Positions 31,435-47,743 of a stretch of 64,000 nucleotides of DNA are shown piece by piece (the first letter of the stretch is position 1; the number at the start of each line of letters is the position of its first letter). The translations under genes and the position numbers were made by a program. This stretch comes from Pedobacter sp. JY14-1. GTDB lineage: Bacteria > Bacteroidota > Bacteroidia > Sphingobacteriales > Sphingobacteriaceae. A model generated the notes under the pieces. The model saw only the letters and a list, made by a program, of their open reading frames with translations. It ran no database searches and was not told where the DNA came from. The DNA is taken from NCBI RefSeq assembly GCF_029269825.1, contig NZ_JARJHU010000008.1, positions 124,001-188,000 of the forward strand, read 5' to 3'.

Positions 31435-33438
31435 TTATTTTTTGGTCACCTTGAACTCAGTTCTCCTGTTAAGTGCCCTTCCTTCAGGGTTATCCTTGCC
31501 ATTGGGTAGCGTATTGGGTGCCACAGGCCTTGATTCACCATATCCTTTGCTCGTCATCCTCGATTGGGAAATTCCCTTTGATATCAGGTAATCGACACAG
31601 GATTTAGCACGGCGATTGGAAAGATCAAGGTTATAAATATCAGACCCTTTACTATCGGTGTGGGCGCTAAGTTCGATTTCAATACTCGGGTTATCTACCA
31701 TAATGGTATACAGATAGTCAAGTTTGGTTTTCGAGTCCTCGGTTAAGGTCGCTTTATCAAATTCGTAGAATACGTCCTTGAGCACTATCGGCTTGTCAAC
31801 CTCAAACGGCACAAGGCATATCTCCGGACTGAATAGCGTATCTTTATTCATCATGTCCTCTTTAGTGTAGGTCAGTACTTTCGCAAAGTACTTATCCTTT
31901 TCGGCCTTGATCTTCATGCCACGGTTAGCATTAAGCTGAAAGTTATAGGCACCTGATTCGCTGGTGATCTGAACCTGTGAACCTGCCGAATCGCTTAGGG
32001 TAACCATTGCCCCGGCAAGCGGTTTCAGTGTATTGCAGTCCAGGATTATTCCCTTGACAGTCAGATACTGGCGCTGGATATGGAATATCTCAAGACAGCA
32101 CAAGGATTCGCGGTCAGAGCTAATGTATCCCTCTGAATCGTGATCAGCTGAAGGGGTAAAGTACATATCATCTTTAGATGAGTTGAAAGGGAAACCAAGA
32201 TTTCTGGGTACTGACAGCGCCCCAAATTCACCTTCGCTCTCAAAGAAGTCATATCCACCCATACCTACTCTTCCATTTGTACTGAAAAGAAGTTTCTTGC
32301 TATCAGAATTATAATAGGGTGCCTGCTCGTCATCTGCGGTATTAATCGCAGGTCCCATATTTACAGACTGCCCCAAAGAACCATCAGTTCTTAACGGGCA
32401 ATACCAAAGGTCATATTTACCCGAGCCGCCTGGCTTATCGGAAGAAAAGATAAGGTATTTACCATCTTTGGTAATAAAAGGCTGAATAGAATTAAAACCT
32501 TTAACATTAACCTGTGCCGGAAGTTCTATGGGCTCAGACCAGGGTTTGGAAGTGCCTGGAGTAGCTACCAGCTGATAGATTTTCTTCTCTCCATTATTGT
32601 TCCAGCCGGTAATATACATTGCTTTACCATTCGGATGCAATGCCGGAGCTGCTGACTCCCTGTTTTTACCATCCGATGTCACGATCTTGCGGATGGTCAC
32701 CTTGTCTGTAAGCGGATTTCCGGAGGCTTCGTAAATCTCGTTCAGATAAGGTGTTTCTGGTTTGCTTACCTTCGCATTATCCTTATCTGTAAGCACCTCT
32801 TTCTTCCCTGATGAACCTACGGGTCTTGAAGAGGTAAAATAAAAACTGCTATTATTCCATACCGCTGCGTAATTGGACCCTTTGTCATTGATACCGTTAT
32901 TCAGCCTGCTGACTTTAAACAGCCTTGGATAACGTAACTCATAAAGTGCAAACTGGCAAGAAGCGATTTCTGATCTGGCTTTGGCCAGGTAAGTGTCATA
33001 AGCCTTGTACTTTGAAAGAAAATCATTAAATGCCTCAATTGCTTCTGTATATTTCTGGTTGGCTCTCAAAGTCTCTCCATACCAGAAGCCGCTTAAAATA
33101 TACTTCGGCTCAGTAAACCCTTTGGCAATAGCATACCAGGCCTCCGCATCTTTAAAGTCCTTATACAGCCTGAGGGACTCTGCAAGCTGGAATACGCTGT
33201 ATTCATAGTCGCTCTTATCCGGGCTTTCCTGCTTTATCTTGTTAATAAAGCCATAAGGCACTACAAAACCGGAACTGTCCGCCGACAATTGTAATGTCTT
33301 CTTATAATACTCAGCAGCTGCATAATATTCCTTATTCTGAAAGTAAACATCAGCTGCCCTTTTGCTGTCAGTTACAAACTGCGCATTTACCACTGTTGAA
33401 AATAAGCACAGGATCAATATTGTTTTAAGCAATTTCAT
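31435..33438 (-). CDS. OmpA-family protein with TPR, PD40 propeller and CRD (PorE-like)
   Basis: 667 residues: signal peptide (to about 19, VNAQF), TPR-like helices (about 25-165, YFQNKEYYAAAEYYKKTLQL and YTEAIEAFNDFLSKY), a PD40 beta-propeller (about 185-440, with KYLIFSSDKPGGSGKYDLWY and KKLLFSTNGRVGMGGYDFFE), a carboxypeptidase-regulatory-like domain (about 455-525), and an OmpA peptidoglycan-binding domain (about 545-665, LSAHTDSKGSDIYNLDLSNRRA). This is the domain order of PorE of the type IX secretion system, which links the machine to peptidoglycan. Because it is in an operon with a type B cargo and a PorP/SprF gene, it is more likely a dedicated paralogue than the core PorE. Confidence 0.92.
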   Translation of the reverse strand: MKLLKTILILCLFSTVVNAQFVTDSKRAADVYFQNKEYYAAAEYYKKTLQLSADSSGFVVPYGFINKIKQESPDKSDYEYSVFQLAESLRLYKDFKDAEAWYAIAKGFTEPKYILSGFWYGETLRANQKYTEAIEAFNDFLSKYKAYDTYLAKARSEIASCQFALYELRYPRLFKVSRLNNGINDKGSNYAAVWNNSSFYFTSSRPVGSSGKKEVLTDKDNAKVSKPETPYLNEIYEASGNPLTDKVTIRKIVTSDGKNRESAAPALHPNGKAMYITGWNNNGEKKIYQLVATPGTSKPWSEPIELPAQVNVKGFNSIQPFITKDGKYLIFSSDKPGGSGKYDLWYCPLRTDGSLGQSVNMGPAINTADDEQAPYYNSDSKKLLFSTNGRVGMGGYDFFESEGEFGALSVPRNLGFPFNSSKDDMYFTPSADHDSEGYISSDRESLCCLEIFHIQRQYLTVKGIILDCNTLKPLAGAMVTLSDSAGSQVQITSESGAYNFQLNANRGMKIKAEKDKYFAKVLTYTKEDMMNKDTLFSPEICLVPFEVDKPIVLKDVFYEFDKATLTEDSKTKLDYLYTIMVDNPSIEIELSAHTDSKGSDIYNLDLSNRRAKSCVDYLISKGISQSRMTSKGYGESRPVAPNTLPNGKDNPEGRALNRRTEFKVTKK

Positions 33439-33471: not shown

Positions 33472-34467
33472 TTATAACCTTGGACAGAAAAAGTTGGGAC
33501 CAAACAAGCCTTTCCTGCTGGTGAACGAAACTGAAAGCTCAAGTCCACCCTGACTTCTCGTAGCCCTGCTCAGGTTGGAAGTATTGAAATCGTAGCTTAC
33601 CCCGAAAACCATATTCTTCAGATGAAGGCCAAAAAATGCGATCGCTGCATCGTCTACCCTGTAGTTGGAACCGAACAGCAGATCTGTCTCCTGGTTTAAC
33701 ATCAGTTGCGCATATGCACCTGCGGCAATTTCCCGCGCATTGCCTTGTTTCATGTACAGTGCATTTGGAGTAACGTCAAGCGCTTCCGAAACCTTGATCC
33801 TTGCCCCTCCATGTGCGGCGTAGCGAATTGGCATGCGTACGCTACTGCCTAGAAACTTGTCAACGGGCCTTGTCAGGTGGCCTGCCATCGCTCCGGCGAA
33901 AACATTTACCAGTTGTCCTGGGTTTCCATCGAAATACATAATCCCTGCATTCACATCAGGAACAAGTGTATTTGAAGAAGCGAATGACTCGTTGATACCG
34001 AAATTAGGGTCATAGCCGGTTAGAGGATTGAATTGGGCACCAAGGGTAATCTTTGAAGGATCAAAGCTTTTGTTAAGAATACCTGCCTGCAATCCGAAAT
34101 TGATCATATTCAACCCTTGTTTACCAAAGTGTATACGATAAGCACCTGAAACCAGTGCATTGAGATGATTATAACTGACATCACCGGCATTCTGGTTTAA
34201 TACCATGGCACCAAACGCCAGATTCTTTACAGGTGCCATATCGAAGGAAGCACCCCCGGTAAGGAATGAATTGGATATCGACCCCCATTGTTGCTTGGCG
34301 TTAAGAGAAACCCTGTATTCGCCGTCGGTCACACCCGTCAGCGCCGGGTTAAGCCAAAGCGGATGCGCATAGTATTGGGAGAAGTGCGGATCTATCTGTG
34401 CGGAGACCTTTGTGGCTCCGAAACACAATACAGCTCCCACTGCCAGTATATTGATTAGCTTCTTCAT
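33472..34467 (-). CDS. PorP/SprF-family type IX secretion membrane protein
   Basis: 331 residues from the ATG opening a signal peptide (MKKLINILAVGAVLCFGAT, cleavage after VSAQ). The mature start IDPHFSQYYAHPLWLNPALTG is the hallmark of the PorP/SprF family, 14-stranded outer-membrane barrels that hold type B T9SS cargo at the surface. Longer starts upstream would precede the signal peptide and are rejected. It lies between the giant cargo gene (57 nt) and the PorE-like gene (33 nt) on the same strand, the usual order for a cargo with its own partner. Confidence 0.94.
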   Translation of the reverse strand: MKKLINILAVGAVLCFGATKVSAQIDPHFSQYYAHPLWLNPALTGVTDGEYRVSLNAKQQWGSISNSFLTGGASFDMAPVKNLAFGAMVLNQNAGDVSYNHLNALVSGAYRIHFGKQGLNMINFGLQAGILNKSFDPSKITLGAQFNPLTGYDPNFGINESFASSNTLVPDVNAGIMYFDGNPGQLVNVFAGAMAGHLTRPVDKFLGSSVRMPIRYAAHGGARIKVSEALDVTPNALYMKQGNAREIAAGAYAQLMLNQETDLLFGSNYRVDDAAIAFFGLHLKNMVFGVSYDFNTSNLSRATRSQGGLELSVSFTSRKGLFGPNFFCPRL

Positions 34468-34524
34468 AACTAAGTTGTTTTTCAGTTTTGTAGGTAAATG
34501 ATTGAAGTTTACTGCGATCATCTT

Positions 34525-37500
34525 TTATCTTAATAGCGTTATCGTACCTTTTTTAGTTGTCTTTGTACCATCGGTAAACTCAGCCTCGAGATAATACACA
34601 TAAACACCATTTGGCTGCAGGCTTCCTTTATATGTACCGTCCCACCCATTCTGCATATGCTGTGATTCATAAAGGAATTGTCCCCATTGATTGTAAACCC
34701 TGAACCTGATCTTAGCGATCGTATTTCCATATACATACAGGACATCGTTCCTTCCATCGTTATTAGGAGTGAAAGTGTTGGGAACAAATATGGTATTGCC
34801 CAGAGGATTTTCGGTTTTACCGGAGAAAGTGGTGGCATCGCTCAATTGGCAATCCAGCTGGCCTTTAGCACGTACCCTGATCGAGACCGTCTGATTTGGT
34901 TGCAGTCCCGCATACAGATAGGTTGTACCAGACGGTCCGCCACTTGGCGCTATCCAGGTCAATCCGTTGTCGATGGAAACTTCATAAGCAACCGCACCAG
35001 CAATAGCGTTCCACTGGAAGTTGATGCTGGTTGCAGTTGTCGATTGTACTGATACAACCGGTGCATCCAGCTTAGCAAGCACTGTTATCTGGACTGGCGT
35101 ACGCGTGTTGCTGGTACAACCAGTCATATTGCTTACTGCTTCGACATAGTATATGGTATTGGCTGAAACTGCCGGAGTGGTAAAGGTATTACCTTCGGCA
35201 AGCTTAGTTCCTCCGGTAGGTACTGAATACCATCTGTATGTTAAGGCTGCGTCCGGATTGTTGACAGATAATACTGCTGTTGATGACGCACAGAGCGGGT
35301 CAGCTGCTCCGGATACTGAAACAGGCGGCACTGGTTTCGGCGCTACAGTTATGGTCACCGCAGCACGTGAGCTACTGGTACAGGTCGCTGTAGATGCTTC
35401 TACGTAAAATACCTGATTTGAGATGATCACCGGTGTAGTAAAGTCACTACCTGTACCTATAGCATTGCCACCTGTGGCCGTATTATACCATGTGTAAGTA
35501 ACTTGATTTTGCGGGTTGGAAACGCTAAGGACAGCAATACTACCTTCACAGGCTGTGACAGCAGCTGAAACCACAGCAGGTGTATTCGGCCTAGGTGCCA
35601 CCGTTATGGTCACCTTTACTCTCCCACTGGCATTTCCGCAGCCGGATACGCTGTTAGCTTCTACATAGAAGTCGGTTGTAGCATTCAGTGCTGATGTAGT
35701 ATACTGGTTACCTGTAAATAAAAGTGTACCACCGGTAGCCTGCGTATACCATTTATAAGTAATGCCTGCTTTTGCATTTTCCACGACAAGTATTGCAGTT
35801 TCTCCACTGCACACTGTACCTGAAGAAGTTACCGATGGAGTTTCAGGTAATGGATTGATGTTAATGGTTACCGCCTTTGCTGTAGAAGCAGTATTCTCGC
35901 ATTTGTTACTTCCCCTTACAGTTACATAATAAGAGGTTGTTGTCTGCAAGGTTGGTGTATCGAATACAGCTCCTGTAAATATCGCATTTGTTAATTGGGC
36001 ATCGGTATACCAGGTAAATACAGGATTAGTAACAGTAGTACTTGAGGCGGTAAGCTTGACTTTTGTGCCGGCGCAGTATGAAGTTCCTGCTCCCGCAACA
36101 GCGATATCAGAATTCAACGCAGGAGGGTTGATGGTCACTACTGCTGCTTTTGCAGTTGTCGCTGTATTTTCGCACTTATTACCACCTCTTACAGTTACAT
36201 AATAGGTCGTTGTTGCATTCAGCACTGGTGTTTCAAATATCGCTCCGGTAAATACTGCATCTGTTAATGCTGCATCGGTATACCAGGTGAACACCGGATT
36301 GGTGACGGTGGTACTGCCGGCAGTTAAAGTTGCCTTATTACCTGCACACAAAGGATTTCCTGCACCCGAAACGGTAATATCTGCCGCCACAGCAGGTGGA
36401 TTAACCGTCAGCGTAACGGCTTTAGCTGTTGCTGAAGTATTTTCACATTTGTTGGCACCCCTTACTGTTACATAATATGTTTTGGTAGCTGTCAGTACAG
36501 GCGTATTGAATACTGCTCCGGTGAACACCGCATTGGTCAATACCGCGTCGCTATACCAGGTAAATACAGGATTGGTAACGGTAGTACTTGAAGCTGTCAG
36601 ACTGGCTGAAGTTCCTGAACAGAAAGGTGAAGCTGCTCCGGCGATATTTACGTCGGCAGCTACTGCAGGTGGGTTGACCGTCAGCACAACAGTTTTCGCC
36701 CCCGCAGCAGTATTTTCACATCTGTTAGATCCCTTAACAGTCACATAGTATGTTTTTGTGCCCGTCAGTTCAGGAGTAGTAAGCACCGCACCGATAAAGA
36801 CTACATTGGTCAGGGCTGCATCGCTGTACCAGGTAAATACAGGATTGGTCACAGTAGTACTCGAGGCAGTAAGCGTTGCTTTTGTACCGGCGCAGAAAGG
36901 TGCTCCTCCGCCGCTCACACTGATGTCTGCAGCTAGTGCAGGTGGATTGACATTTAAAGTAACCACTTCTGCCCCGGCTGCAAGATTTTCGCATTTGTTT
37001 GCCCCTTTTACAGTTACATAATAAGTAACTGTGGCGGTCAGTACAGGCGTGGTGAATTCAGGTCCGGTAAATACAACATCAGTCAGCGCTGCATCCTTGT
37101 ACCAGGTAAAGACCGGACTGGTCACTGTAGTAGTGGTTGCGGTAAGCTTCGCTGTAGTACCGGCGCAATAAGTAGTACCAGCTCCTGAAACTTCCAGATC
37201 AGCTGCCGTGGCCGGTGGATTTACTTTAAGCGCAACAACCTTAGCCTCAGCCGCTGTATTTGCACATTTGTTGGTACCACGTACCGTTACATAATAAGTT
37301 CTGCCCGTCGTGAGCACTGGGGTTTCATATTCAGCACCTGTAAACACTGCATTGGTCAATGCCGCATCAGTATACCAGGTAAATACAGGATTAGTTACCG
37401 TCACACTGCTGGCGGTAAGCTTGGCTTTGGTTCCGGCACAGAAAGGTGATCCGGCTCCGGTTACATTTAAGTCTGACGCAAGTGCTGCAGGATTCACCAC

Positions 37501-40500
37501 AATCGTGATCTTGGTCCTTGTACCTACGCTGACACATGCATTTGCATTTGTAGCTTCAACATAGTAGTCATGTGAACCTGCAGCAAGGCTGGCCGGGGTA
37601 GTGAAACTTGCTGTATTAGCGGCGACAAGATTACCCCCTGATGCCGCATCGTACCAGTTAAACGTTACCCCTGCTACGGCATTTACACGTAAGGTAACCG
37701 GAGTGTTGAAACAGGCCGTCGCAGGGTTGCCCGCCGCAGCAACTGGCGGAAGCGGTGCTTCAACTATGGTGACTGTTACTTTTGTTTTTGCGCTTTCACA
37801 ATTGTTCCGTGTAGCAGATACAAAATAGTCGTAGGTACCTGCTGCTAAAGTATTGTCAACAGTAAAAGAGATGCCATCTTTCCCAGCCAGATAAGTAGCA
37901 CCTCTGTACCATTTATAAGTAGTACCTGGTGCGGGGTTGGCTATTGCTAGTATAGCAGATGTTCCTGCACAGGCAGTCACTGTCTGGCTGGCCACTTTAG
38001 GTGCCGCAATGATCCTTCTAGCATAATTAAAGTCCAGCGTAGTCAGGACCGCTGCCAGGCCTGATTTCAATCTTAATTCCACCCCATCGAATTGCTTTTG
38101 GGGAACAAACTTAAGTGTCGCTGCACTGTTATCGCTCAGCAGTTCCAGGTGGATAAGCGGGTTGCTGGCCACAAGCTGGTCATTATTGCTTGTCGCCCCG
38201 TTGAAAGTTCTCAGTTCAATGGATGGGAGAACTGCCAGTGACAGCAATTTTCCGGGCGAACTGATCCTTACGACGACAGTATCACCTATTGCTGACAGAC
38301 CGTTGAAGCCTACCTGCTGGTAAACAGAAGCACCAAGTGCGCCGACAGGCATTACAAATGAAGATCCCGTCTGTGCATTGTTGTCCACGGCCAGGCCTGG
38401 ATTAAATACCCCGGTAAGCAGGGCCACGCCATCTACACCATGTTTAACGGATACTGTGGCAGCTTCACAAGGGACATCTGTAGGTGCAACCCTGGGCAGC
38501 ACAGTTACGACAACAGGTTTCCGCACCGAAGTACAACCTCCGGCTACCGATGCTGAAACATAGAAAGTGATCTGGATCGGAGCAGTGCCATCGTTAATGA
38601 ATTGGGAAGTCACAAGCCTTGCCCCGTTGAAAACAGGAGTTTCACCAGGATTAGTAGTATTAAACCAGCTGAATGTAGCACCGGCAGTACTTGACGTTGC
38701 TGTCAATACTGCAACTGAACCGGAAGCAATTACAGGAGCTGCAGGCGTAACTACAGGGGCGTCCAGTGTTCCGACTTGTACAGTAGCCACTGCCTTCGAC
38801 GCCGAAGCCACACCACAACTGTTTACAGCTTCTACTGAATAAGTTGTCGTGGCAGCTACCGAGGCAATGGTAAAAGTAGGGCCGTCTTTACCTGTCTGAT
38901 AAACACCTGCGTTGTTATACCACTTATAGGTAATTCCGGTAACTGGGTTGCTTACGGAGAGTACTACAGAATTACCAGCACAAGTATTTACAGAGGATGA
39001 AACCAATGCCGGCGTCTGTGGTGCAGGTGTTACAGTGATGTTCACTGCAGTCCTGTAGCTTGAACAGCCAGAAGCGGTGGTTGCTTCAACATAATATTTT
39101 GTATTTGCAGACAAGGCTGGTGTAGTAAAGGTAACGCCGTCCTTACCTGTCTGGTAGTTGCCGGAAGCATCGTACCATTTATAGGTGATTCCTGATTTTG
39201 GATTCTTAACGGTGAGGACTGCGGTTTGCGTTGCGCAGGCCGTAACATCTGCCGCGACTATTTCAGGTGAAACAGGAACACGTTGTGCATAGTTGAGATC
39301 GATCGAAGTCAATGCACCAGCGAGCCCTGAATTCAACCTTACTTCAACTTTATCAAATTGCTTGGTTGGGACAAAACTCACCAGGGCTCTGCTGTTTCCG
39401 CTTAAAAGCTCGATACGGATCAGGGCATTGTTAAGTTTAATTACATCATTGTTGCCGGTATTTCCATTATAAGTACCTACTTCAATATTTGAAAGGACGC
39501 CAACTGAAAGTAATTTGCCGGGAGCAGTGAGCAGTATACGTACTGTATCACCTATATTAGAAAGGTTTGCAAAACTCAACCGCTGATAAACGGATGCGCC
39601 AAGAAGGCCGACTGGCATTACCAGTGAAGACCCGGTAGTTGTATTGTTGTCGATCGCCAGTTGCGGATTGAATACACCCGCCAGCAAAGCTACGCCATCT
39701 ACACCATTTACTTGGGCGACAGGTGCCTCACAAGGTACAGGGTTAGGCAGCCCCCCGCCGCTTACATTGACCGTAACCGAGACCCTTCCAGGCGCTGAAC
39801 AACCGCTGGCGTTCGATTTTGCTTCTACATAATAGGTTGTAGCAACAGTTAACGGCGGGGTAACAAAAGTAGGACCTGTATAAACAGGAGTTACTGATGT
39901 TTCTGATGTATACCAGCTAAAGGTAATATTCGATTCCGAAGAAGTAGCAGTCAGTATTGCCGTCTGGCCCGGATTCACCGTAGCAGAAGAAGCCTGTACC
40001 TGTGGTAACGCAGGCAAGGGCAAGACGGTAATGGTTACTGGTCTTCTGGAAGCACTTGTACAGCCTCCGTTTGCAGCTTCTACATAATAAGTAGCTGTAG
40101 CCGTAAGTGCCGGAGTATTGAATGTCTGTCCAGTAAATACCGGAGTTCCACCGGTTGCAGTATTATACCAGTTATAAGTTAAACCACTTACCGGCCCACT
40201 TACCTGGATTGTTGCGGAAGATCCGGAACAAACAGGGCCAACAGCAGCGACAACAGGAACAGCAGGAGCTGTGGTTACGTTAACCGTAACAGGTATTCTT
40301 GGAGTACTGGTGCAGCTTCCCCTGCTTACTTCTAAATAATAAGTCGTGTTTGCGGTAAGTACTGGAGTCGTAAAGTTCTCTCCTGTTTGAAGGAGCGTAC
40401 CTGCAGTCGCAGCACTATACCATCTTAATGTTGTGCCACCATTTGCAGAAGCAGACAATGTTGCTGCACTTCCCGAACATACCGTTTGGCCAACAGTATT

Positions 40501-42870
40501 AATAGTGGGTTTTGGATAAACGATCTCGGCACCATAAATACTGAGGTTACTTAATGCTGCTACAAGTGCCCCAAATCTTACCTCTACACGGTCAAATGTC
40601 CCGCCGGCAGGAAATGTGGCTTTAAATCTGTTGCCACTCAAGAGCTTCAGATCAACAAGGGCAGAATTGAGCTGGTAAGTCTTGATGACATCGGCACCAT
40701 TCATCACTCTGATAGTAACACCGCTAAGCACACTGAGATCTGCAAGCCCAACCGGAGTTTCCAGATCCAGACGTATACTATCCGAAGCAACGCCATCCTT
40801 ACCGAAGATCAATCTCTGGTAACCGGTAGCGCCGACACCCACAGCCAGGTTTATTTTTGTAAAATTATTAAGATTGGCATCAGTAGAATTTCCAGCGCCC
40901 TGTATGCTGCACAATACACAGATACCGTCGATACCGGTCTGTTGTGCCACTGCTGCGTTACAATTTGTATTTGTAGTACCATTTATTACAGTTACCGTAA
41001 CAGGAACTCTTTTAGAAACGCAACCTGTTGCATTCTCTGCCGCTACATAGTAGGTAGTTGTAGCAGTCAATACCGGGGTAGTCAATTCAGCCCCGCTGCC
41101 GATTGCAGTTCCACCAGTAGCCACTGCATACCATCTCAATGTACCTGTACCTGTGGCCCTCAATGTAGCAGTCTGACCTGCGGTAATTGTTTCGTTATTT
41201 GTAGATACAACAGGTAAATCCGGAACGGGATTTACCACAATTTCGACTTTTGTCCGGGTAGCACTTACGCAACTTCCATTTACAGCTTCAACATAAGCAT
41301 TTGTAGTTGCGGTAAGTACAGGAGTAGTAAACGCATTGCCTGTAGCCAGTGGCGTGCCGCCCGTCGGAGTGGAATACCAGCGGTAAGTCAAACCTGTTAC
41401 AGGATTACTGATTGTCAGCAATGCAGTTGAACCGGAACATACTGGCGCAACAGCTGTCACTGCAGGAGCAGCGGGGACAGCTGTAACGGTAACCCGCACC
41501 GGCACCCTCACAGACTCATCCAGGCAGCCGGTTCTTCTGGCCGCTACATAATAAGTTTTATTGGCACTCAGTGCAGGTGTAACAAATGCAGCGTTGTAGG
41601 CTACAGTAGCTAAAGGGCTGCCTCCGGTCAGACTATCATACCAGCGCAGTTCGTTGGTAGCTGCTGTTGTAGCGGTTAGGCTCACAGCACTCCCTGAACA
41701 GACGGAGACCATATTTGAGGCCGGAGCTGTAAAAGTAGGCCTTCCTGCAGAACGCGTTATAGCATAAAGGTTTAAAGTTTGTGTCAAACTGGCATTTAGC
41801 AGTGACGACATGGACACTTTAACACGGTTGTAGGCTATTCCAGGTGCAAAAGAAACAGACACAACTTGTCCGCTGTTCAGCAAACCAAGGAGGTCGAGGT
41901 TGATCAGTGAAGATAAGCTGGCCGTACCAACTTCTGTAATCCCATTGTATGCAGTTACCGATACATTGTTCAATAAACCTACGTTTAAAAGCGCCGGATC
42001 TGCCTGGATCTTTATATTGATATCATCAGTCGGATTAGACAGGGTTTCGAAGTATATATTCTGACTAATTGTCCCCGCCACACCAAGAATGCCTAAACTG
42101 AGCTCAGAATAGTTGTTCGGGTCGGTATCTATTGCTCTCTCAGGATTGGTCACACCAGCCTTGCCCAATCCCAGCAGATCAACCGTAAGCCCAGTTCCTT
42201 CATAACCGGTAGCAAATCCCTGGGCACAGGGGTCAGTTCCCGTTGTATAGAAAGCATTATATACTCTCATGCTGTTACTGGCACCCAGCAACAACGCATT
42301 GGTCACGTCCTGTATATAAATACGATCATAGCTTGATGAAGGTGTAAGCGCCACATAGAAATTTCCAGAGGCGTCTTTGATCAATCTGAGGTTAGGGTTA
42401 GTAAACGCCCCCGTGCTACTCCCTGAAAGCACAGCAGAACTTCCGTTTCTCGCCTCTATTTTAAAGAAATGATTACCCAACGCGACATTCCCCAAAACAT
42501 CAGCGAGTACTCCGCCCAGGTTTCCACCAATAAGGGCGTTTAAAACGTCTGGGTCAAAATCTATACGCACAAAAGATGTTGTACCGGCCGCAACAACAGA
42601 AGGAAATTTGATTTCCAATTGCCCGGTGTAACGCCCGATGCCGAGGGCCAAACCTCCGTTCGATTTTACAGTCGCAAAACTATTGTTGGCCAAAACCGCA
42701 TTACCAGGATTATCCACATGGTCGTCAGCAGCACTACCGATAGTAACCTGATTAGCATAAATCCGGGACTGCGCATACGATTTGAAACCAAAAAACGTTA
42801 TACCCAATAAAGCAATAAGAATAATAACAGACTTTTGAGATTTCCCTAATAAGGTAGATGTCCATTTCAT
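34525..42870 (-). CDS. Giant Ig-repeat surface protein with type B T9SS sorting domain
   Basis: 2781 residues, the largest gene of the window, probably a surface adhesin. A signal peptide (about 1-34, SYAQ) is followed by four copies of a roughly 155-residue module (first copy about 210-380; later ones marked CEAPVAQVNGVDGVALLAGV), each followed by Ig-like domains of the CSG...WY...TP.L....YYV type. About 20 Ig-like domains can be counted, six of which are 91-residue near-copies in tandem. Then come one fibronectin-III-like domain (LDAPVVSVQSTTATSINFQW) and the gliding-motility-type C-terminal domain (IFVPNTFTPNNDGRNDVLYV to GTITLLR), the type B signal for T9SS. No enzymatic domain was found. 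First gene of the operon with a PorP/SprF and a PorE-like partner. Confidence 0.93.
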   Translation of the reverse strand: MKWTSTLLGKSQKSVIILIALLGITFFGFKSYAQSRIYANQVTIGSAADDHVDNPGNAVLANNSFATVKSNGGLALGIGRYTGQLEIKFPSVVAAGTTSFVRIDFDPDVLNALIGGNLGGVLADVLGNVALGNHFFKIEARNGSSAVLSGSSTGAFTNPNLRLIKDASGNFYVALTPSSSYDRIYIQDVTNALLLGASNSMRVYNAFYTTGTDPCAQGFATGYEGTGLTVDLLGLGKAGVTNPERAIDTDPNNYSELSLGILGVAGTISQNIYFETLSNPTDDINIKIQADPALLNVGLLNNVSVTAYNGITEVGTASLSSLINLDLLGLLNSGQVVSVSFAPGIAYNRVKVSMSSLLNASLTQTLNLYAITRSAGRPTFTAPASNMVSVCSGSAVSLTATTAATNELRWYDSLTGGSPLATVAYNAAFVTPALSANKTYYVAARRTGCLDESVRVPVRVTVTAVPAAPAVTAVAPVCSGSTALLTISNPVTGLTYRWYSTPTGGTPLATGNAFTTPVLTATTNAYVEAVNGSCVSATRTKVEIVVNPVPDLPVVSTNNETITAGQTATLRATGTGTLRWYAVATGGTAIGSGAELTTPVLTATTTYYVAAENATGCVSKRVPVTVTVINGTTNTNCNAAVAQQTGIDGICVLCSIQGAGNSTDANLNNFTKINLAVGVGATGYQRLIFGKDGVASDSIRLDLETPVGLADLSVLSGVTIRVMNGADVIKTYQLNSALVDLKLLSGNRFKATFPAGGTFDRVEVRFGALVAALSNLSIYGAEIVYPKPTINTVGQTVCSGSAATLSASANGGTTLRWYSAATAGTLLQTGENFTTPVLTANTTYYLEVSRGSCTSTPRIPVTVNVTTAPAVPVVAAVGPVCSGSSATIQVSGPVSGLTYNWYNTATGGTPVFTGQTFNTPALTATATYYVEAANGGCTSASRRPVTITVLPLPALPQVQASSATVNPGQTAILTATSSESNITFSWYTSETSVTPVYTGPTFVTPPLTVATTYYVEAKSNASGCSAPGRVSVTVNVSGGGLPNPVPCEAPVAQVNGVDGVALLAGVFNPQLAIDNNTTTGSSLVMPVGLLGASVYQRLSFANLSNIGDTVRILLTAPGKLLSVGVLSNIEVGTYNGNTGNNDVIKLNNALIRIELLSGNSRALVSFVPTKQFDKVEVRLNSGLAGALTSIDLNYAQRVPVSPEIVAADVTACATQTAVLTVKNPKSGITYKWYDASGNYQTGKDGVTFTTPALSANTKYYVEATTASGCSSYRTAVNITVTPAPQTPALVSSSVNTCAGNSVVLSVSNPVTGITYKWYNNAGVYQTGKDGPTFTIASVAATTTYSVEAVNSCGVASASKAVATVQVGTLDAPVVTPAAPVIASGSVAVLTATSSTAGATFSWFNTTNPGETPVFNGARLVTSQFINDGTAPIQITFYVSASVAGGCTSVRKPVVVTVLPRVAPTDVPCEAATVSVKHGVDGVALLTGVFNPGLAVDNNAQTGSSFVMPVGALGASVYQQVGFNGLSAIGDTVVVRISSPGKLLSLAVLPSIELRTFNGATSNNDQLVASNPLIHLELLSDNSAATLKFVPQKQFDGVELRLKSGLAAVLTTLDFNYARRIIAAPKVASQTVTACAGTSAILAIANPAPGTTYKWYRGATYLAGKDGISFTVDNTLAAGTYDYFVSATRNNCESAKTKVTVTIVEAPLPPVAAAGNPATACFNTPVTLRVNAVAGVTFNWYDAASGGNLVAANTASFTTPASLAAGSHDYYVEATNANACVSVGTRTKITIVVNPAALASDLNVTGAGSPFCAGTKAKLTASSVTVTNPVFTWYTDAALTNAVFTGAEYETPVLTTGRTYYVTVRGTNKCANTAAEAKVVALKVNPPATAADLEVSGAGTTYCAGTTAKLTATTTTVTSPVFTWYKDAALTDVVFTGPEFTTPVLTATVTYYVTVKGANKCENLAAGAEVVTLNVNPPALAADISVSGGGAPFCAGTKATLTASSTTVTNPVFTWYSDAALTNVVFIGAVLTTPELTGTKTYYVTVKGSNRCENTAAGAKTVVLTVNPPAVAADVNIAGAASPFCSGTSASLTASSTTVTNPVFTWYSDAVLTNAVFTGAVFNTPVLTATKTYYVTVRGANKCENTSATAKAVTLTVNPPAVAADITVSGAGNPLCAGNKATLTAGSTTVTNPVFTWYTDAALTDAVFTGAIFETPVLNATTTYYVTVRGGNKCENTATTAKAAVVTINPPALNSDIAVAGAGTSYCAGTKVKLTASSTTVTNPVFTWYTDAQLTNAIFTGAVFDTPTLQTTTSYYVTVRGSNKCENTASTAKAVTININPLPETPSVTSSGTVCSGETAILVVENAKAGITYKWYTQATGGTLLFTGNQYTTSALNATTDFYVEANSVSGCGNASGRVKVTITVAPRPNTPAVVSAAVTACEGSIAVLSVSNPQNQVTYTWYNTATGGNAIGTGSDFTTPVIISNQVFYVEASTATCTSSSRAAVTITVAPKPVPPVSVSGAADPLCASSTAVLSVNNPDAALTYRWYSVPTGGTKLAEGNTFTTPAVSANTIYYVEAVSNMTGCTSNTRTPVQITVLAKLDAPVVSVQSTTATSINFQWNAIAGAVAYEVSIDNGLTWIAPSGGPSGTTYLYAGLQPNQTVSIRVRAKGQLDCQLSDATTFSGKTENPLGNTIFVPNTFTPNNDGRNDVLYVYGNTIAKIRFRVYNQWGQFLYESQHMQNGWDGTYKGSLQPNGVYVYYLEAEFTDGTKTTKKGTITLLR
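35860..37497 (-). repeat. Six tandem 273-bp repeats (91-residue Ig-like units)
   Basis: Six in-frame units of exactly 273 bp, each opening with (V/I)NP and holding CAGT..LTASSTTVTNPVFTWY, then YYVTVRG.NKCEN. Spacing was checked at both ends (the VNP codons at 37489-37497 and the INP codons at 35851-35859). The middle units are the most alike, as expected from unequal crossing-over. Confidence 0.88.
38010..42235 (-). repeat. Higher-order repeat: four about 155-residue modules with Ig-like spacers
   Basis: Modules lie near 41750-42235, 40505-40975, 39280-39735 and 38010-38470, about 1.24 kb apart. The last two are most alike (GVDGVALL.GVFNP.LA.DNN...GSS.VMPVG.LGASVYQ). In the intervals stand three Ig-like domains. 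The pattern suggests growth by duplication of a module-plus-three-Ig block. Confidence 0.75.
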
Positions 42871-43175
42871 AGGAGAGAGATTGAGATTATCTTAAATTAA
42901 CTTGATGCAAGTTTAATCATAGATCAGCTCGTAATTCCCGTTCGAATTGTTCATTTAAGCGCTCTCGCCAATTACACGCTGTTCATTTTATTCATTTTGG
43001 GACAAGAGGTATTCGCGCTTTTTCAATAAAAACCCGCATATTTGTTTGCTTTATAGACGATTACTCAAATATTTTTACTCCCATTCATTTTTCGTTCACA
43101 CAAAGGGGTTCTTTGTTTTTGTTTAAAGCGTTATATTCGATACATTCAAGAATTTAACGCTTAACGAAATATTGT
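42871..43175. other. Divergent A+T-rich intergenic region
   Basis: 305 bp between the giant adhesin gene (-) and the NTPase gene (+). No tRNA or open frame worth calling. It holds a small dyad (AACTTG, ATG, CAAGTT at 42899-42913) 28 nt ahead of the adhesin start and a larger inverted repeat ahead of the NTPase gene. No full TAnnTTTG box was found for either gene. Confidence 0.6.
43124..43164. promoter_or_regulatory. Inverted repeat upstream of the NTPase gene
   Basis: Arms at 43124-43136 and 43152-43164 match at 11 of 13 positions (core AAGCGTTA / TAACGCTT), with a 15-nt spacer; the second arm ends 11 nt before the ATG. It could be an operator, perhaps for the HTH-like N-terminus of the encoded protein. 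Confidence 0.4.
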
Positions 43176-45704
43176 ATGGACGAGACATTTATATTAAATG
43201 AACTAAAAAGCTTAATTCTTTCCAAGACAGGAATACGTACAATTACGCCAGCTGATTGTAAGCGCATTTCGATTGAGATAAGCAAAACATTAAATAAGAA
43301 TGTGAGCGAAACTACGATTAAGCGATTGTTTGGTTTTGCCATGGTCAAGCACAACTTCTCCAAGTTTACGCTGACTACGCTTTCAGAATATGTGAACGAA
43401 GAGCATCTTGAACAAGGCTCCCCAAACAAGGGCCTGAACATTCAAAACTCGCCCAGGACCTGGAAAGAAATTCATGAGAAAGCGATAAAGGTTTCCGAAT
43501 ATACTGTCAAAGCGATAAAAAACCGTTCTGGCATTCCCTATGAAATGACGATCAGCAGAAAGTTCAGTGAACACGATTTTGAACTCTTCTTCAAAAGTGA
43601 CTACAGTTTTACCAGCTATATTTCGCAGCCTGGATATGGCAAAAGCATTCTGCTCACCCACCTTGCTGAGAAACTAATCAGCAATGAACGGAATATCTTC
43701 TCAGATTCCTCTCTGTTGTTTATTACAACAAGCAGCCTTTTCAACGGCGAAAAAGGATTGGTCAATTTTGAAGAACAGCTTAAGTTTCATCTTGGCATTC
43801 CTGCAAAGGACAGCCTGATCGCTCAGGCGGCCCAGAACTACGATACAACAGGTGGAAAGCTGATTATTTTTATTGACGGCTTCTCAGATCATGAATTCGA
43901 AAAAGACTTAAAAAAACAGCTATTTGAAAGCATTACGAATTTTCTTTGTACCATCGAGAACTGCAAGGCGATCAAACTGGTCCTAAGTATGAGATCAACT
44001 ACCTGGATTCGGTTTTACAATGAAATCAGGCATTCCGCATACCTCAAATCGAAGTGGTTTCCCGGAAGTTACTTCAATGTTGCTGAGATTTCAAATGTCC
44101 CTCCACTCACAGAAAAAGAGGTAGACCAGATTTTATCTAAAATCAATTCGAAGGAACATCCGGAAATAGGCCCAAATCTGAAAGACCAGTTAAAATTCCC
44201 CTTTCACATTCAATTATACCATCAGTTGAAAAAGGAAGATCCGAATTTTAATTATTCAACCAATATCACTTTTTATGAGCTGATCTTTAAATTTATACAG
44301 AACCAGATTTATCGTTCAAACTATTACACGGAAAAAATCCTCTTCCTGAAGAAAATCATACTACTGACTGATTTCGGAAGAAATGGAAGCTCAATATTAA
44401 AAGACGACCTGATTGGAGACCTGCTCGCCTTCAAGAACGCATATATAGAGTTACTTTCCGATGGCATACTCATGGAAGAAAAAAGTAACGAAGACTTTCA
44501 TCCCAAGGAGTATGTTAAATTTATCCACCCTCATATATTTGAGTATTTCCTTTTTATTGAAATACTTGAAAAATTTGACCTTAAGGTAGACGGCTCATAT
44601 TTTGACTTTATCCAGAAAGAATACAAAAGTGAACAAATTCGGTTCCAGTTACTTCAGTGGACAATTCGCTTCATCATAAGAATTGGCGATTTTAAATCTC
44701 TTGCACTGCTCTTCGAGCTTGATCTGAATAACTACGAGAAGAATTATCTTATTCTATTCGTTGCGGAAAATCTCCATTACAGGTGCAAGAACAACCCAGA
44801 CACAAATAGGCTTTTGCACGAACATAAGTTTCACGAAGCAATAGTAAAGGAATTAATCAGTTTCGACTTTATTGATTCTTTCTATCGTGATGCCATTAAT
44901 GTATTGATCGAGATAACTGAAGATGAAGAAACATTAATGGTTTATCACGCTATCTTGTCGATATTTGATGTTTTCAGCTTAAATACCGATCTCATTAAAA
45001 AACGTACGAACATACTTTATAGTTTTGACTCAAAAAAATGGCCTGTCCATCCTCAAAAAATCAATCAGCTTATATTAGACCGGATAAACGGAAAAACAGA
45101 TAACAAGATCGCCATGCAGGAATTGATAAAGGCCTGTTCAGAGAGTTATTCCGGCGTCTATTCGATCCAGCAAACTGTTTCGCTTATCCTGATCATTGTA
45201 CTGGGCTTTTTTTATAAATATAACGATGCAGACGTAAAGAACATTAGATCTCTTTATAATCATACAGCCCTCGAGTCTCAGCCCCGCTCTCAACTGGCTA
45301 TATTCCTGGTCAGCCTCCTGGCACTGGCAAACCTGATCCAGGGAAATAATACCAGGATATTTCAGTTTGGTAATATCCTTAGCCTACTGGGTAAAGACAA
45401 AATGAGATTTGGCGTTACCAAATATACAGAAGCAACTACCAAGCTTATCAATGCCCAACTAAATTTTCTGGAAAAAGAGTACGCTGTATCCTATCAATAT
45501 TATCTGGATTGTCTTCAGATCTTTAAAAGAAACAAGTTGAACTTACATTGTACATATATCTACAGTACGATCATAGAAATCTTCAAGAAAATGAATGATC
45601 ATACCCGGGCTAACGAATTTAAGTACGACATGTTATGCTTTATAGAAGACAATAACATTTCAGGTAAGTTCAATAACTGGGAAAGAAACAATGATATAAA
45701 TTAA
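43176..45704 (+). CDS. NACHT/STAND-like NTPase with HTH-like N-terminus
   Basis: 842 residues, soluble, not a named family that I recognise. N-terminus (1-80): a helical region with ITPADCKRISIEISK and VSETTIKRLFGFA, like the HTH-type N-terminal domain seen in many uncharacterised Bacteroidota proteins (..S.tTlKRlfG..). NTPase core: Walker A-like SQPGYGKSILL (150-160; Ser replaces the first Gly), Walker B KLIIFIDGFSD (228-238) with the DG pair of NACHT proteins, and LVLSMRSTTW (268-277) as sensor-like Arg motif. The rest (about 340-842) is alpha-helical, with TPR-like pairs near the end (YAVSYQYYLDCLQIF). STAND proteins switch on ligand binding to the C-terminal repeats; a regulator or a one-gene defence protein are both possible. 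Base composition is visibly more A+T-rich than the fad genes. Its stop abuts the stop of the Rrf2 gene. Confidence 0.8.
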   Translation: MDETFILNELKSLILSKTGIRTITPADCKRISIEISKTLNKNVSETTIKRLFGFAMVKHNFSKFTLTTLSEYVNEEHLEQGSPNKGLNIQNSPRTWKEIHEKAIKVSEYTVKAIKNRSGIPYEMTISRKFSEHDFELFFKSDYSFTSYISQPGYGKSILLTHLAEKLISNERNIFSDSSLLFITTSSLFNGEKGLVNFEEQLKFHLGIPAKDSLIAQAAQNYDTTGGKLIIFIDGFSDHEFEKDLKKQLFESITNFLCTIENCKAIKLVLSMRSTTWIRFYNEIRHSAYLKSKWFPGSYFNVAEISNVPPLTEKEVDQILSKINSKEHPEIGPNLKDQLKFPFHIQLYHQLKKEDPNFNYSTNITFYELIFKFIQNQIYRSNYYTEKILFLKKIILLTDFGRNGSSILKDDLIGDLLAFKNAYIELLSDGILMEEKSNEDFHPKEYVKFIHPHIFEYFLFIEILEKFDLKVDGSYFDFIQKEYKSEQIRFQLLQWTIRFIIRIGDFKSLALLFELDLNNYEKNYLILFVAENLHYRCKNNPDTNRLLHEHKFHEAIVKELISFDFIDSFYRDAINVLIEITEDEETLMVYHAILSIFDVFSLNTDLIKKRTNILYSFDSKKWPVHPQKINQLILDRINGKTDNKIAMQELIKACSESYSGVYSIQQTVSLILIIVLGFFYKYNDADVKNIRSLYNHTALESQPRSQLAIFLVSLLALANLIQGNNTRIFQFGNILSLLGKDKMRFGVTKYTEATTKLINAQLNFLEKEYAVSYQYYLDCLQIFKRNKLNLHCTYIYSTIIEIFKKMNDHTRANEFKYDMLCFIEDNNISGKFNNWERNNDIN

Positions 45705-46142
45705 TTAAAAGAGGTTAGTACCGTCAGATTCTCTGGAGATTACATCAGCAATTGATGTACTGGCCAGAACATTCAGTGTAGCATTTCTAACATCGATAAA
45801 GGTCTTGCGAATTCCGCAGGTAATTTCGTCATGGCATTCATCACACTTACGATAAAATTTCAGGCTTGCACAAGGGACCATTGCAATAGGCCCGTCTGTT
45901 ATCCTTAAAATATCTGCAAGAAAGATATCCTCAGGAGCCTTATTAAGGCTATATCCTCCTCCGGCACCCTTTTTACTGTAAAGGTAACCTGCATTACGCA
46001 TGTCAAGCAGGATTTGTTCAAGGAATTTCCTGGGAATCATTTCCCTTTCTGCCAGTTTTACAATCTGCATAGGAGGATTCCCGATGTTTTTCCCAAGTGC
46101 AACTAAAGCCTTAATGGCATATTTTGTTTTCTTAGACAGCAT
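45705..46142 (-). CDS. Rrf2-family transcriptional regulator
   Basis: 145 residues from the ATG that opens the family start MLSKKTKYAIKALVAL; longer frames upstream run through non-family sequence and the promoter box. Winged HTH about 1-65 (PMQIVKLAEREMIPRKFLEQ, GYLYSKKGAGGGYSL). Four Cys (91, 100, 103, 109) stand where IscR and NsrR carry the three Fe-S cluster ligands, so an iron-sulfur or redox/NO sensor is plausible, though spacing differs from IscR. Convergent and directly abutting the NTPase gene. A -7 box ends 5 nt before the ATG. Confidence 0.9.
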   Translation of the reverse strand: MLSKKTKYAIKALVALGKNIGNPPMQIVKLAEREMIPRKFLEQILLDMRNAGYLYSKKGAGGGYSLNKAPEDIFLADILRITDGPIAMVPCASLKFYRKCDECHDEITCGIRKTFIDVRNATLNVLASTSIADVISRESDGTNLF

Positions 46143-46147
46143 ATAAG

Positions 46148-46155
46148 CAAATTTA
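46148..46155 (-). promoter_or_regulatory. Candidate -7 box of the Rrf2 gene, next to its start codon
   Basis: Minus strand TAAATTTG, then 5 nt, then ATG: another possible leaderless transcript. No -33 element is evident. Confidence 0.4.
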
Positions 46156-46394
46156 CGAAATAAAGTTATCAGAAAAAACATGTCTCCGGAACATAAATAT
46201 GGCCAGTTACATCGTCTTAGCGGAAAAGCCCACATAGTTACCCACAAAAATAACCGAATATAAAATAAACAAAAACTATAATCTAAAATAAAAACATCAT
46301 TACTTCTTATAACCACATCAAAACAACCAAAAAGGACCTCTACGTTCTATTCATTGGATGGAACCCGCTTGAAAATACTTTATTAGCTTTTTTG

Positions 46395-46402
46395 TATTTT
46401 TG
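46395..46402 (+). promoter_or_regulatory. Candidate -7 box of the sigma-54-type response regulator gene
   Basis: TATTTTTG, 15 nt before the chosen ATG (46418); a TTG lies at 46369-46371 with a 23-nt spacer. It supports the ATG at 46418 over the in-frame TTG at 46400. Confidence 0.45.
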
Positions 46403-46417
46403 AAAAAACTGATCCCT

Positions 46418-47743
46418 ATGGCTAAGATACTTATTATTGAAGACGACCTGACTTTTTCTCAAATACTTGACGGCTTTTTAAGTAAAAATGGACATCAGGT
46501 AATGTTAGCAAATAATGTCCGTAAAGCGCTGGAGATATTTAAAAGTGAGTGCCCGGATGTGCTGTTGGCGGATTACCGCCTGCCGGACGGAACAGCGCTG
46601 GATGTACTTACCTACATCACGGACCAGGCAGCTACTCAGCCTGTAGTCATTATGACCAGTTTTAATGATGTAAGAACAGCGGTAAGATCAATCCAGATGG
46701 GTGCTTCAGATTACATTACAAAGCCCGTTAATCCTGATGAACTCCTGATGATTATCAATTCAGTTTTAAACAAAGGTACTTCATCTAACTCAGGTACGGT
46801 GGAGTATCAGGATGCGATTAAAGGGAAGAGCCCTGTTTCAGATAAAATCAATGAATATATCAGTCTTGTTGCACCAACAGATATGTCTGTGATCATTCAG
46901 GGAGAAAGCGGTACCGGCAAAGAATACGCAGCCAGGAGCCTGCATATGCAGAGTAAGAGAAGAGACAACCCTTTCATAGCCATCGATTGCGGGGCGCTTT
47001 CAAAGGATTTGGCTGCAAGCGAGCTGTTCGGACATATAAAAGGAGCTTTTACCGGAGCGCTGAATAATAAAAAAGGACAGTTTGAGGCTGCACATGGCGG
47101 GACATTATTCCTGGACGAAGTAGGCAACCTAAGCTATGAAGTACAGGTAAAACTCCTGCGTGCCATCCAGGAAAGAACAATACAGCCTCTGGGAAGCACG
47201 AAGAACCTTAAGGTAGATGTACGCATTATTACGGCGACCAATGACGACCTGAAAGCAAGTGTTCAAAATGGCACGTTCAGAGAAGATCTCTACCACAGGC
47301 TGAACGAATTCAAGATTCAGCTGCCACCACTCCGGGAGCGGGGCAGGGATATTGAACTGTTCATCAATCATTTCATTAAACAGTCAAATCAGGCACTGGG
47401 AAAAAACGTCGTCAAAATAGCTGACCCCGCAAAAGAACTGCTGCTTCAATACGACTGGCCGGGAAACTTACGCGAGTTGAAAAACGTGATCAAGCGAATG
47501 ATATTGCTGACAAATGGCGACATCGCAGAACTGGATTCCCTTCCGGAGGAGATGATGCTCGCAATTGACCGGGACACCAGTGTGTCCGGCTCAGATCTGA
47601 AGGCCATCAATGAGATTAATGAAAAGGCGCTGATACAGGAAACGCTGATTAAAGTCAGATACAATAAATCCAAAGCCGCAAAACTCCTGAATATTGACCG
47701 CAAAACGCTTTACAGCAAAATGGAACGTTATGAAATTGAGTAG
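46418..47743 (+). CDS. Sigma-54-dependent response regulator (NtrC type)
   Basis: 441 residues from MAKILIIEDD. Receiver domain 1-120 with Asp52 as phosphoacceptor (LLADYRLPDG) and Lys102 in YITKP. AAA+ domain about 135-365: Walker A GESGTGKE (162-169), the sigma-54 contact loop GAFTGA (209-214) intact, Walker B LFLDEVG (about 230-236). C-terminal Fis-type HTH (NKSKAAKLLNIDRKTLYSKM). It should switch on RpoN promoters when phosphorylated. Convergent with the hybrid kinase gene, 16-nt overlap of the 3' ends; the two may be partners, but no shared operon shows it. Confidence 0.94.
   Translation: MAKILIIEDDLTFSQILDGFLSKNGHQVMLANNVRKALEIFKSECPDVLLADYRLPDGTALDVLTYITDQAATQPVVIMTSFNDVRTAVRSIQMGASDYITKPVNPDELLMIINSVLNKGTSSNSGTVEYQDAIKGKSPVSDKINEYISLVAPTDMSVIIQGESGTGKEYAARSLHMQSKRRDNPFIAIDCGALSKDLAASELFGHIKGAFTGALNNKKGQFEAAHGGTLFLDEVGNLSYEVQVKLLRAIQERTIQPLGSTKNLKVDVRIITATNDDLKASVQNGTFREDLYHRLNEFKIQLPPLRERGRDIELFINHFIKQSNQALGKNVVKIADPAKELLLQYDWPGNLRELKNVIKRMILLTNGDIAELDSLPEEMMLAIDRDTSVSGSDLKAINEINEKALIQETLIKVRYNKSKAAKLLNIDRKTLYSKMERYEIE

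Follow-up and report, generated by a model that had tools for sequence, protein, structure and literature searches.

Phage defence has become a near-automatic reading of bacterial NACHT proteins. The window analysed here, a stretch of 64,000 nucleotides from the soil bacterium Pedobacter, contains a lone gene for such a protein next to a giant surface adhesin, and the question raised by this locus is what the NACHT module does there. The initial annotation had offered two answers, a one-gene defence protein or a Bacteroidota class of STAND regulator that perhaps acts across the divergent gap on the adhesin operon. Strong support was found for the second, in the conserved adjacency of the two genes, their strict co-occurrence, a rigid repeat array between them and the HTH fold of the N-terminus. 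Because of this evidence, the gene is read here as probably encoding a transcription regulator of the STAND family that acts, most likely as an activator, on the divergent adhesin-PorP-OmpA operon and on its own gene.

The gene starts with an ATG and forms a single-gene unit with a GC content of 0.35-0.38, compared with approximately 0.44-0.49 in its surroundings. Its stop codon (45702-45704) abuts that of the Rrf2 gene, which begins at 45705, in agreement with the lone, A+T-richer gene described from the letters of the sequence. Other features noticed in the same way were borne out as well: the Walker A, the Walker B with IDG and the MRS-type sensor of a STAND/NACHT NTPase are present and are accompanied by fold matches to NLRC4 and Avs4, the long helical-repeat C-terminus is modelled as a TPR-like superhelix, and the HTH-like N-terminus is predicted to adopt a lambda-repressor/POU-like fold. 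The coordinates of these features, and of those in the neighbourhood, are listed in Table 1.

Table 1. Features of the adhesin-STAND locus, in positions of the window
Feature	Position	Strand	Support
OmpA/PD40 protein of the adhesin operon	31435..33438	-	Pfam OmpA E=1e-18
PorP/SprF outer-membrane partner	33472..34521	-	Pfam PorP_SprF E=6e-44
Giant adhesin of 2781 aa with many Ig_7 domains and a CHU_C type IX signal at its C-terminus	34525..42870	-	Pfam Ig_7 E=1e-117, CHU_C E=2e-18
Shared divergent promoter region (305 bp) with direct-repeat array	42871..43175		intergenic comparison
-7-like element of the adhesin operon, TAAACTTG on the - strand	42908..42915	-	CAAnnTTA at fixed position, 38/41 loci
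Proximal tandem direct repeat (candidate site), GTTCGAATT-GTTCATTTA	42940..42957	+	comparative sequence
Distal tandem direct repeat (candidate site), GTTCATTTT-ATTCATTTT, 41 bp away from the proximal repeat	42981..42998	+	comparative sequence
Additional half-sites on the STAND side, ATTCATTTT and GTTCACACA	43083..43102	+	counterparts in relatives
-7-like element of the STAND gene, TATATTCG	43132..43139	+	conserved in the intergenic alignment
STAND/NACHT gene (probable regulator), 842 aa: HTH, NACHT-NOD, TPR-like superhelix	43176..45704	+	ORF, alignment, AF2 model
Predicted N-terminal lambda-repressor/POU-like HTH, residues 1-76; putative recognition helix 45-52, SETTIKRL	43176..43403	+	AF2, PDB fold matches
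NACHT/NOD module, residues ~96-460	43461..44555	+	matches NLRC4, Avs4, NLRP3 and Pyrococcus STAND folds
Walker A SQPGYGKS, residues 150-157	43623..43646	+	sequence; conserved apart from Lys-to-Arg in ~20/77 homologues
Walker B LIIFIDGF, residues 229-236	43860..43883	+	sequence, alignment
C-terminal TPR-like helical-repeat superhelix, putative sensor, residues ~472-833	44589..45674	+	AF2; TPR proteins, Z ~13

No Pfam family was detected at gathering score with the 842-residue protein, nSTAND3 (E=2e-4) and NACHT (E=0.02) both staying below it; the NCBIfam search gave no family, and no match was found when the PDB was searched by sequence. Among 23 homologues, Pfam detected NACHT in 12 (best 4e-7) and NPHP3_N in 15. 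The sensor motif reads LSMRSTTW, of which R273 and W277 are invariant in the homologue alignment. In the AlphaFold2 model of the protein (mean pLDDT 81), residues ~92-558 align with NLRC4 (Z 15.1, 392 residues), Avs4 (Z 13.3) and other NLRs, and the part beyond the NOD region, a TPR-like superhelix, aligns with TPR proteins; the second-ranked Foldseek match is 6mfv, a STAND-TPR protein. With its P-loop module carrying a Walker A, an hhhhDG-type Walker B, a sensor Arg and a NOD fold, the protein is a STAND NTPase of the NACHT clade, and the superstructure-forming repeat sensor that belongs beside the NOD in this class is present in the model as the TPR-like superhelix. The P-loop Lys is replaced by Arg in a subclade of the homologues, including the nearest one (L067), suggesting that ATP hydrolysis is possibly dispensable; nucleotide binding without hydrolysis may be enough for this protein. 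A shortened STAND copy of 510 aa, with HTH and NACHT kept and the superhelix lost, was found at L050 (9007-10539), away from the adhesin.

The HTH domain was modelled with AlphaFold2 from residues 1-85 alone, using an alignment of 23 diverse N-termini. Four helices were obtained (3-18, 25-39, 45-52 and 63-74; pLDDT 84), the third of which appears to occupy the recognition-helix position of lambda-repressor/POU-type proteins. All of the 24 best PDB chains were POU-specific, XRE, HipB or CI-type DNA-binding domains, with Z scores from 7.5 to 4.5, after which Z falls to 3.3. Foldseek with the N-terminus alone gave no significant E-value, and the HTH call is based on the VIA-align Z scores, on the nature of the 24 top matches and on the drop that follows them. 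As in STAND transcription activators, a DNA-binding domain, here a predicted one, is joined to a NOD and a repeat sensor.

No carrier of the HTH domain other than the STAND gene was detected in the window's genome. Elsewhere in Bacteroidota, the domain is fused to a CBS domain in L061 and, by sequence similarity, in L062 and L064, to long C-terminal parts resembling helical repeats in L151, L152, L155, L157 and L169, and to one TM segment followed by a C-terminal domain in L160 and L165 (distant Bacteroidota), a spread that would be expected of a portable DNA-binding module of regulators. The proteins with a TM segment (L160:1417-2673 and L165:433-1809) resemble ToxR-type one-component regulators. 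The stand-alone HTH-CBS proteins of ~178 aa at L061 (9608-10144) and L062 (9767-10300) lie near other large repetitive surface-protein genes and are possibly small relatives of the STAND regulator. In genome G004, a 73-aa HTH-only ORF (L065:9753-9974) adjoins a second OmpA-PorP-adhesin operon, which suggests a remnant or a mini-regulator.

The left neighbour of the STAND gene, 305 bp off, is the divergent 2781-aa adhesin. A STAND homologue was matched in 30 of 35 congeners in a first search, and the gene was found in 125 of 145 Pedobacter genomes, the remaining 20 giving nothing or weak/domain-level matches only. The adhesin is immediately divergent from the STAND gene in 59 of the 77 named loci, and 6 more are linked to the adhesin operon in other ways, one as a tandem duplicate beside the adhesin (L094) and five with the STAND gene placed convergently at the 3' end of the operon (L099, L107, L113, L114 and L118). 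At approximately 12 Pedobacter loci, some of them at contig edges, the adhesin does not adjoin the STAND gene. STAND genes are also present in other genera of the family, with a divergent adhesin in 16 of the 23 loci examined there. The locus had been described as a junction between unrelated operons. This does not hold on the adhesin side, where the partner is conserved, whereas the Rrf2 side is indeed clade-specific: the far flank carries Rrf2, NtrC and hybrid kinase genes in one clade, and SusD-type and other genes in another. The block in the window (45705-50181), comprising an Rrf2 regulator, an NtrC-type response regulator and a hybrid kinase, is conserved in one Pedobacter clade only. 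At L094 (7291-12547), two tandem STAND genes lie next to one adhesin, the second copy without the repeat array upstream.

Co-occurrence was assessed in the 145 Pedobacter genomes with the first 230 adhesin residues as query. Both genes were found in 112 genomes, the STAND gene only in 13, the adhesin only in none, and neither in 20 (Fisher p 3e-16); this statistic, like those of the motif counts given below, ignores phylogeny, and since the sampled genomes are related, the counts are non-independent events. Among the 13 genomes with the STAND gene only, at least one (G342, locus L204) does carry an adhesin-like gene there, whose N-terminus has diverged, indicating that the overlap between STAND gene and adhesin is underestimated.

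This distribution bears directly on the first answer, that of an anti-phage NACHT protein of the Avs/bNACHT type, lying beside the adhesin by chance and possibly detecting phages for which the adhesin serves as receptor. Phage-defence roles of bacterial NACHT proteins are known (PMC12169576), and the fold matches to Avs4 and to animal NLRs are compatible with such a role. However, PADLOC searches with the STAND protein and 23 homologues returned only Csx1, at E=0.006 over a 47-residue stretch, a match taken as chance, and no effector domain (nuclease, SIR2, TIR, protease or TM effector) was found, the HTH domain standing there instead. The search of Bacteroidota neighbourhoods proposed in the initial annotation, for defence islands or adhesin operons, found the adhesin operon and no defence-island context, and the gene keeps a stable locus across the genus, in strict association with the adhesin, rather than the patchy occurrence of defence islands. 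Thus, although the NACHT fold is shared, the defence reading is unsupported by PADLOC, effector content or locus, and is considered most improbable after several hundred genomes were compared.

The reading as a transcription regulator was examined in 60 extracted adhesin-STAND intergenic regions. Tandem 9-bp direct repeats, of the type of two copies of GTTCATTTT, were found in 58 of them, with the consensus RTTCATTTT-RTTCATTTT. The pattern RTTC-N5-RTTC occurs 107 times on the STAND-sense strand and once on the opposite strand, 2.8 occurrences being expected by dinucleotide shuffles, and its stricter form RTTCATTTYRTTC occurs 59 times versus 0.0 in dinucleotide shuffles of the 60 regions. Repeat pairs are mostly 40-41 bp apart, and 44-45 bp in the P. 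cryoconitis group. In the window, the distal 18-mer is the sole exact match within the genome.

The array is also rigidly placed with respect to the promoters. A CAAnnTTA box (TAAnnTTG on the adhesin strand) occurs 40 times in the 41 regions of the first group and is close to the Bacteroidota -7 consensus, TAnnTTTG (PMC6414381). In all 38 scorable loci it stands exactly 24 bp from the proximal repeat, and identity between loci is only 42% in the spacer (chance 29%), compared with 78% in the repeat. On the STAND side, a half-site precedes a TATATT element by 22-24 bp in 25 of 31 scorable loci; in the window, this half-site is degenerate. In the divergent second clade, with STAND proteins at 25-32% identity, ATTCATTTTATTCATA is retained and is preceded at 24-25 bp by one half-site. 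The candidate sites are repeated, and their distance from the core promoter of the predicted target is fixed, as is the case for STAND transcription activators.

The position of the repeats also bears on the sign of the regulation. Were the STAND protein a repressor (or anti-activator) of the adhesin locus, released by a signal, the direct repeats would be its operators, and their location within a shared divergent promoter would suit this role, as would the half-sites 22-24 bp ahead of the -7-like box of the STAND gene, an arrangement resembling that of autorepressed loci; moreover, lambda-repressor-like HTHs are often found in repressors. Nevertheless, the proximal repeat lies upstream of the -7-like box and start region, and not over them, at a fixed 24 bp, which is an activator geometry, and the characterised STAND regulators MalT and AfsR are activators (PMC10427625, PMC10936776). 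Repression is regarded as unlikely, and it is promoter geometry alone that favours a putative activation.

The array was found to be kept upstream of the STAND gene at five adhesin-less loci (L092, L093, L110, L126 and L143), and half-sites were also detected at L114 and, more weakly, at L118, where the STAND gene lies at the far end of the operon. No clear match to the array was found upstream of the STAND gene at L091, L096, L102, L107, L113, L117 and L119; L107 and L113 have convergently placed STAND genes, and at the rest of these loci the adhesin does not adjoin.

Genome-wide, the 18-mer tandem repeat was counted with at most one mismatch and compared with a reversed-sequence control. In Pedobacter, 258 sites versus 43 in the control were found in the 125 genomes with the STAND gene, and 8 versus 11 in the 20 genomes without it (Fisher p 3e-5); the latter are fewer and mostly smaller, and when only small STAND-positive genomes were considered, p was 3e-4. 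These counts still include the recurrent near-matches GTCCATTTTATTCATTTT and GTTAATTTTATTCATTTC, which were inside coding genes where inspected; they were rejected as targets, being coding coincidences, and left out of the target survey. In other genera, 61 sites versus 10 in the control were counted in STAND-positive genomes and 82 versus 39 in STAND-negative ones, and in 8 of the former genomes the STAND match is preceded, at 112-479 bp, by a site that is in every case on the same strand.

The motif being approximately twice as frequent as the control in other-genus genomes without the STAND gene, another protein may use similar sites. This modest excess, and the LytTR regulators that adjoin some tandem sites elsewhere, would fit a different co-distributed regulator, such as a LytTR factor or a neighbouring two-component system, binding the repeats while the STAND protein acts indirectly in the same pathway. 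Yet the array tracks the STAND gene despite changed neighbours, in the clade with a different flank, in other genera and at adhesin-less loci, and the N-terminus of the STAND protein is itself a predicted HTH fold. Such a separate binder is judged quite unlikely, and we infer from the comparison of sequences that the STAND protein would bind the tandem repeats directly.

Besides the adhesin promoter, the best sites in the window's genome precede a sugar-transferase EPS gene (L225:9958), a CpsB-type phosphatase/Wza cluster (L226:9019) and a Wza-type exporter (L224:9574). In other species, sites precede, among others, a sugar-transferase homologue (L234), an EPS-type cluster (L235) and a second adhesin-like gene (L232), and ECF sigma factors make up 6 of the 48 proteins encoded downstream. 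In several Pedobacter species, ECF sigma genes are preceded at 45-104 bp by exact or near-exact tandem repeats (L223:14901, L263, L264 and L275). EPS, ECF-sigma and other surface genes perhaps form a small predicted adhesion/matrix regulon of the STAND protein.

By analogy with MalT and AfsR, the NACHT module would be closed in the resting state, with the TPR-like arm/sensor keeping the protein monomeric. A signal sensed by the C-terminal superhelix would open the protein, which would then oligomerise, and its clustered N-terminal HTHs would bind the tandem 9-bp repeats cooperatively. The two repeat pairs, about 41 bp or four helical turns apart, would thereby be occupied upstream of the adhesin promoter, and RNA polymerase could be recruited at the proximal pair, 24 bp from the -7-like box. 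Nucleotide switching and signal input are both proposed by analogy with known STAND proteins. A wider reading is put forward tentatively, as conceivable rather than probable: the family would be an NLR-like switch throughout the Sphingobacteriaceae, a master regulator of surface lifestyle that assembles on tandem 9-bp repeats through its NACHT module and thereby links an envelope or contact signal, received by the TPR-like superhelix, to the coordinated expression of the giant T9SS adhesin, of exopolysaccharide clusters and of ECF-sigma cascades, the POU-like HTH module being also plugged into CBS, helical-repeat and transmembrane sensors of Bacteroidota.

Little is understood of how Bacteroidota control matrix production and the adhesins that they secrete by the type IX route. 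The STAND family presents an NLR-like module in an apparently conserved regulatory role, its target promoter being defined and its binding site predicted, making it a directly testable case of one gene and one 305-bp promoter region; its HTH domain may in addition unlock many unannotated regulators of Bacteroidota. A literature search found no paper describing this STAND family, or the GTTCATTTT direct repeat, in Bacteroidota.

Comparison with known systems places both the target and the protein. We know of no STAND regulator adjoining the SprB/SprF operon of Flavobacterium. In that operon a giant T9SS-exported adhesin with a CTD is encoded together with SprF (PMC9143113), and the Pedobacter target operon likewise pairs, according to Pfam, a giant T9SS adhesin with a PorP/SprF-like protein; unlike SprB, the adhesin of the Sphingobacteriaceae is built of Ig_7 repeats. 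With NLRC4/NLRP3 and Avs4/bNACHT the STAND protein shares a NACHT/NOD module followed by a helical extension (Z 11-15), but no death-fold, nuclease, protease or other effector was found in it, the HTH taking that place, and its context is not one of defence. The archaeal PH0952-type STAND protein (6mfv) consists of an N-terminal DNA-binding domain, a NOD, an arm and a TPR sensor (PMC6468293), and the same order of DNA-binding domain, NOD and TPR is seen in the Pedobacter protein, for which it is the second-best Foldseek match, although the two do not match at the sequence level in the PDB search.

The direct repeats bound by AfsR of Streptomyces are 11 bp long, and the upstream copy overlaps the -35 element (PMC10936776). 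Like AfsR and the large SARP regulators (PMC10936776), the STAND protein has an N-terminal DNA-binding domain, a central NOD and a C-terminal TPR region, and is associated with direct repeats. In contrast to the OmpR-type DNA-binding and BTA domains of AfsR, it carries a lambda-repressor/POU-like HTH and a NACHT-type NOD, and its system involves 9-bp repeats, a Bacteroidota promoter and an adhesin target. Only ~76 HTH residues precede the NOD, and no Pfam hit to an N-terminal OmpR-type or BTA domain was obtained. The DNA-binding domain of MalT is C-terminal and of the LuxR type, whereas that of the Pedobacter protein is N-terminal and lambda-repressor-like, the C-terminus being a helical repeat. 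MalT of E. coli is a STAND activator that oligomerises and occupies several sites of a promoter by cooperative binding (PMC10427625); the Pedobacter system resembles it in its repeated promoter sites and STAND architecture, which by analogy would extend to oligomerisation, and differs from this maltotriose sensor in domain order and HTH type. Since the HTH differs in type from those of AfsR and MalT, and in position from that of MalT, the protein is a member of neither family and is classed here as a separate variant of STAND transcription regulator.
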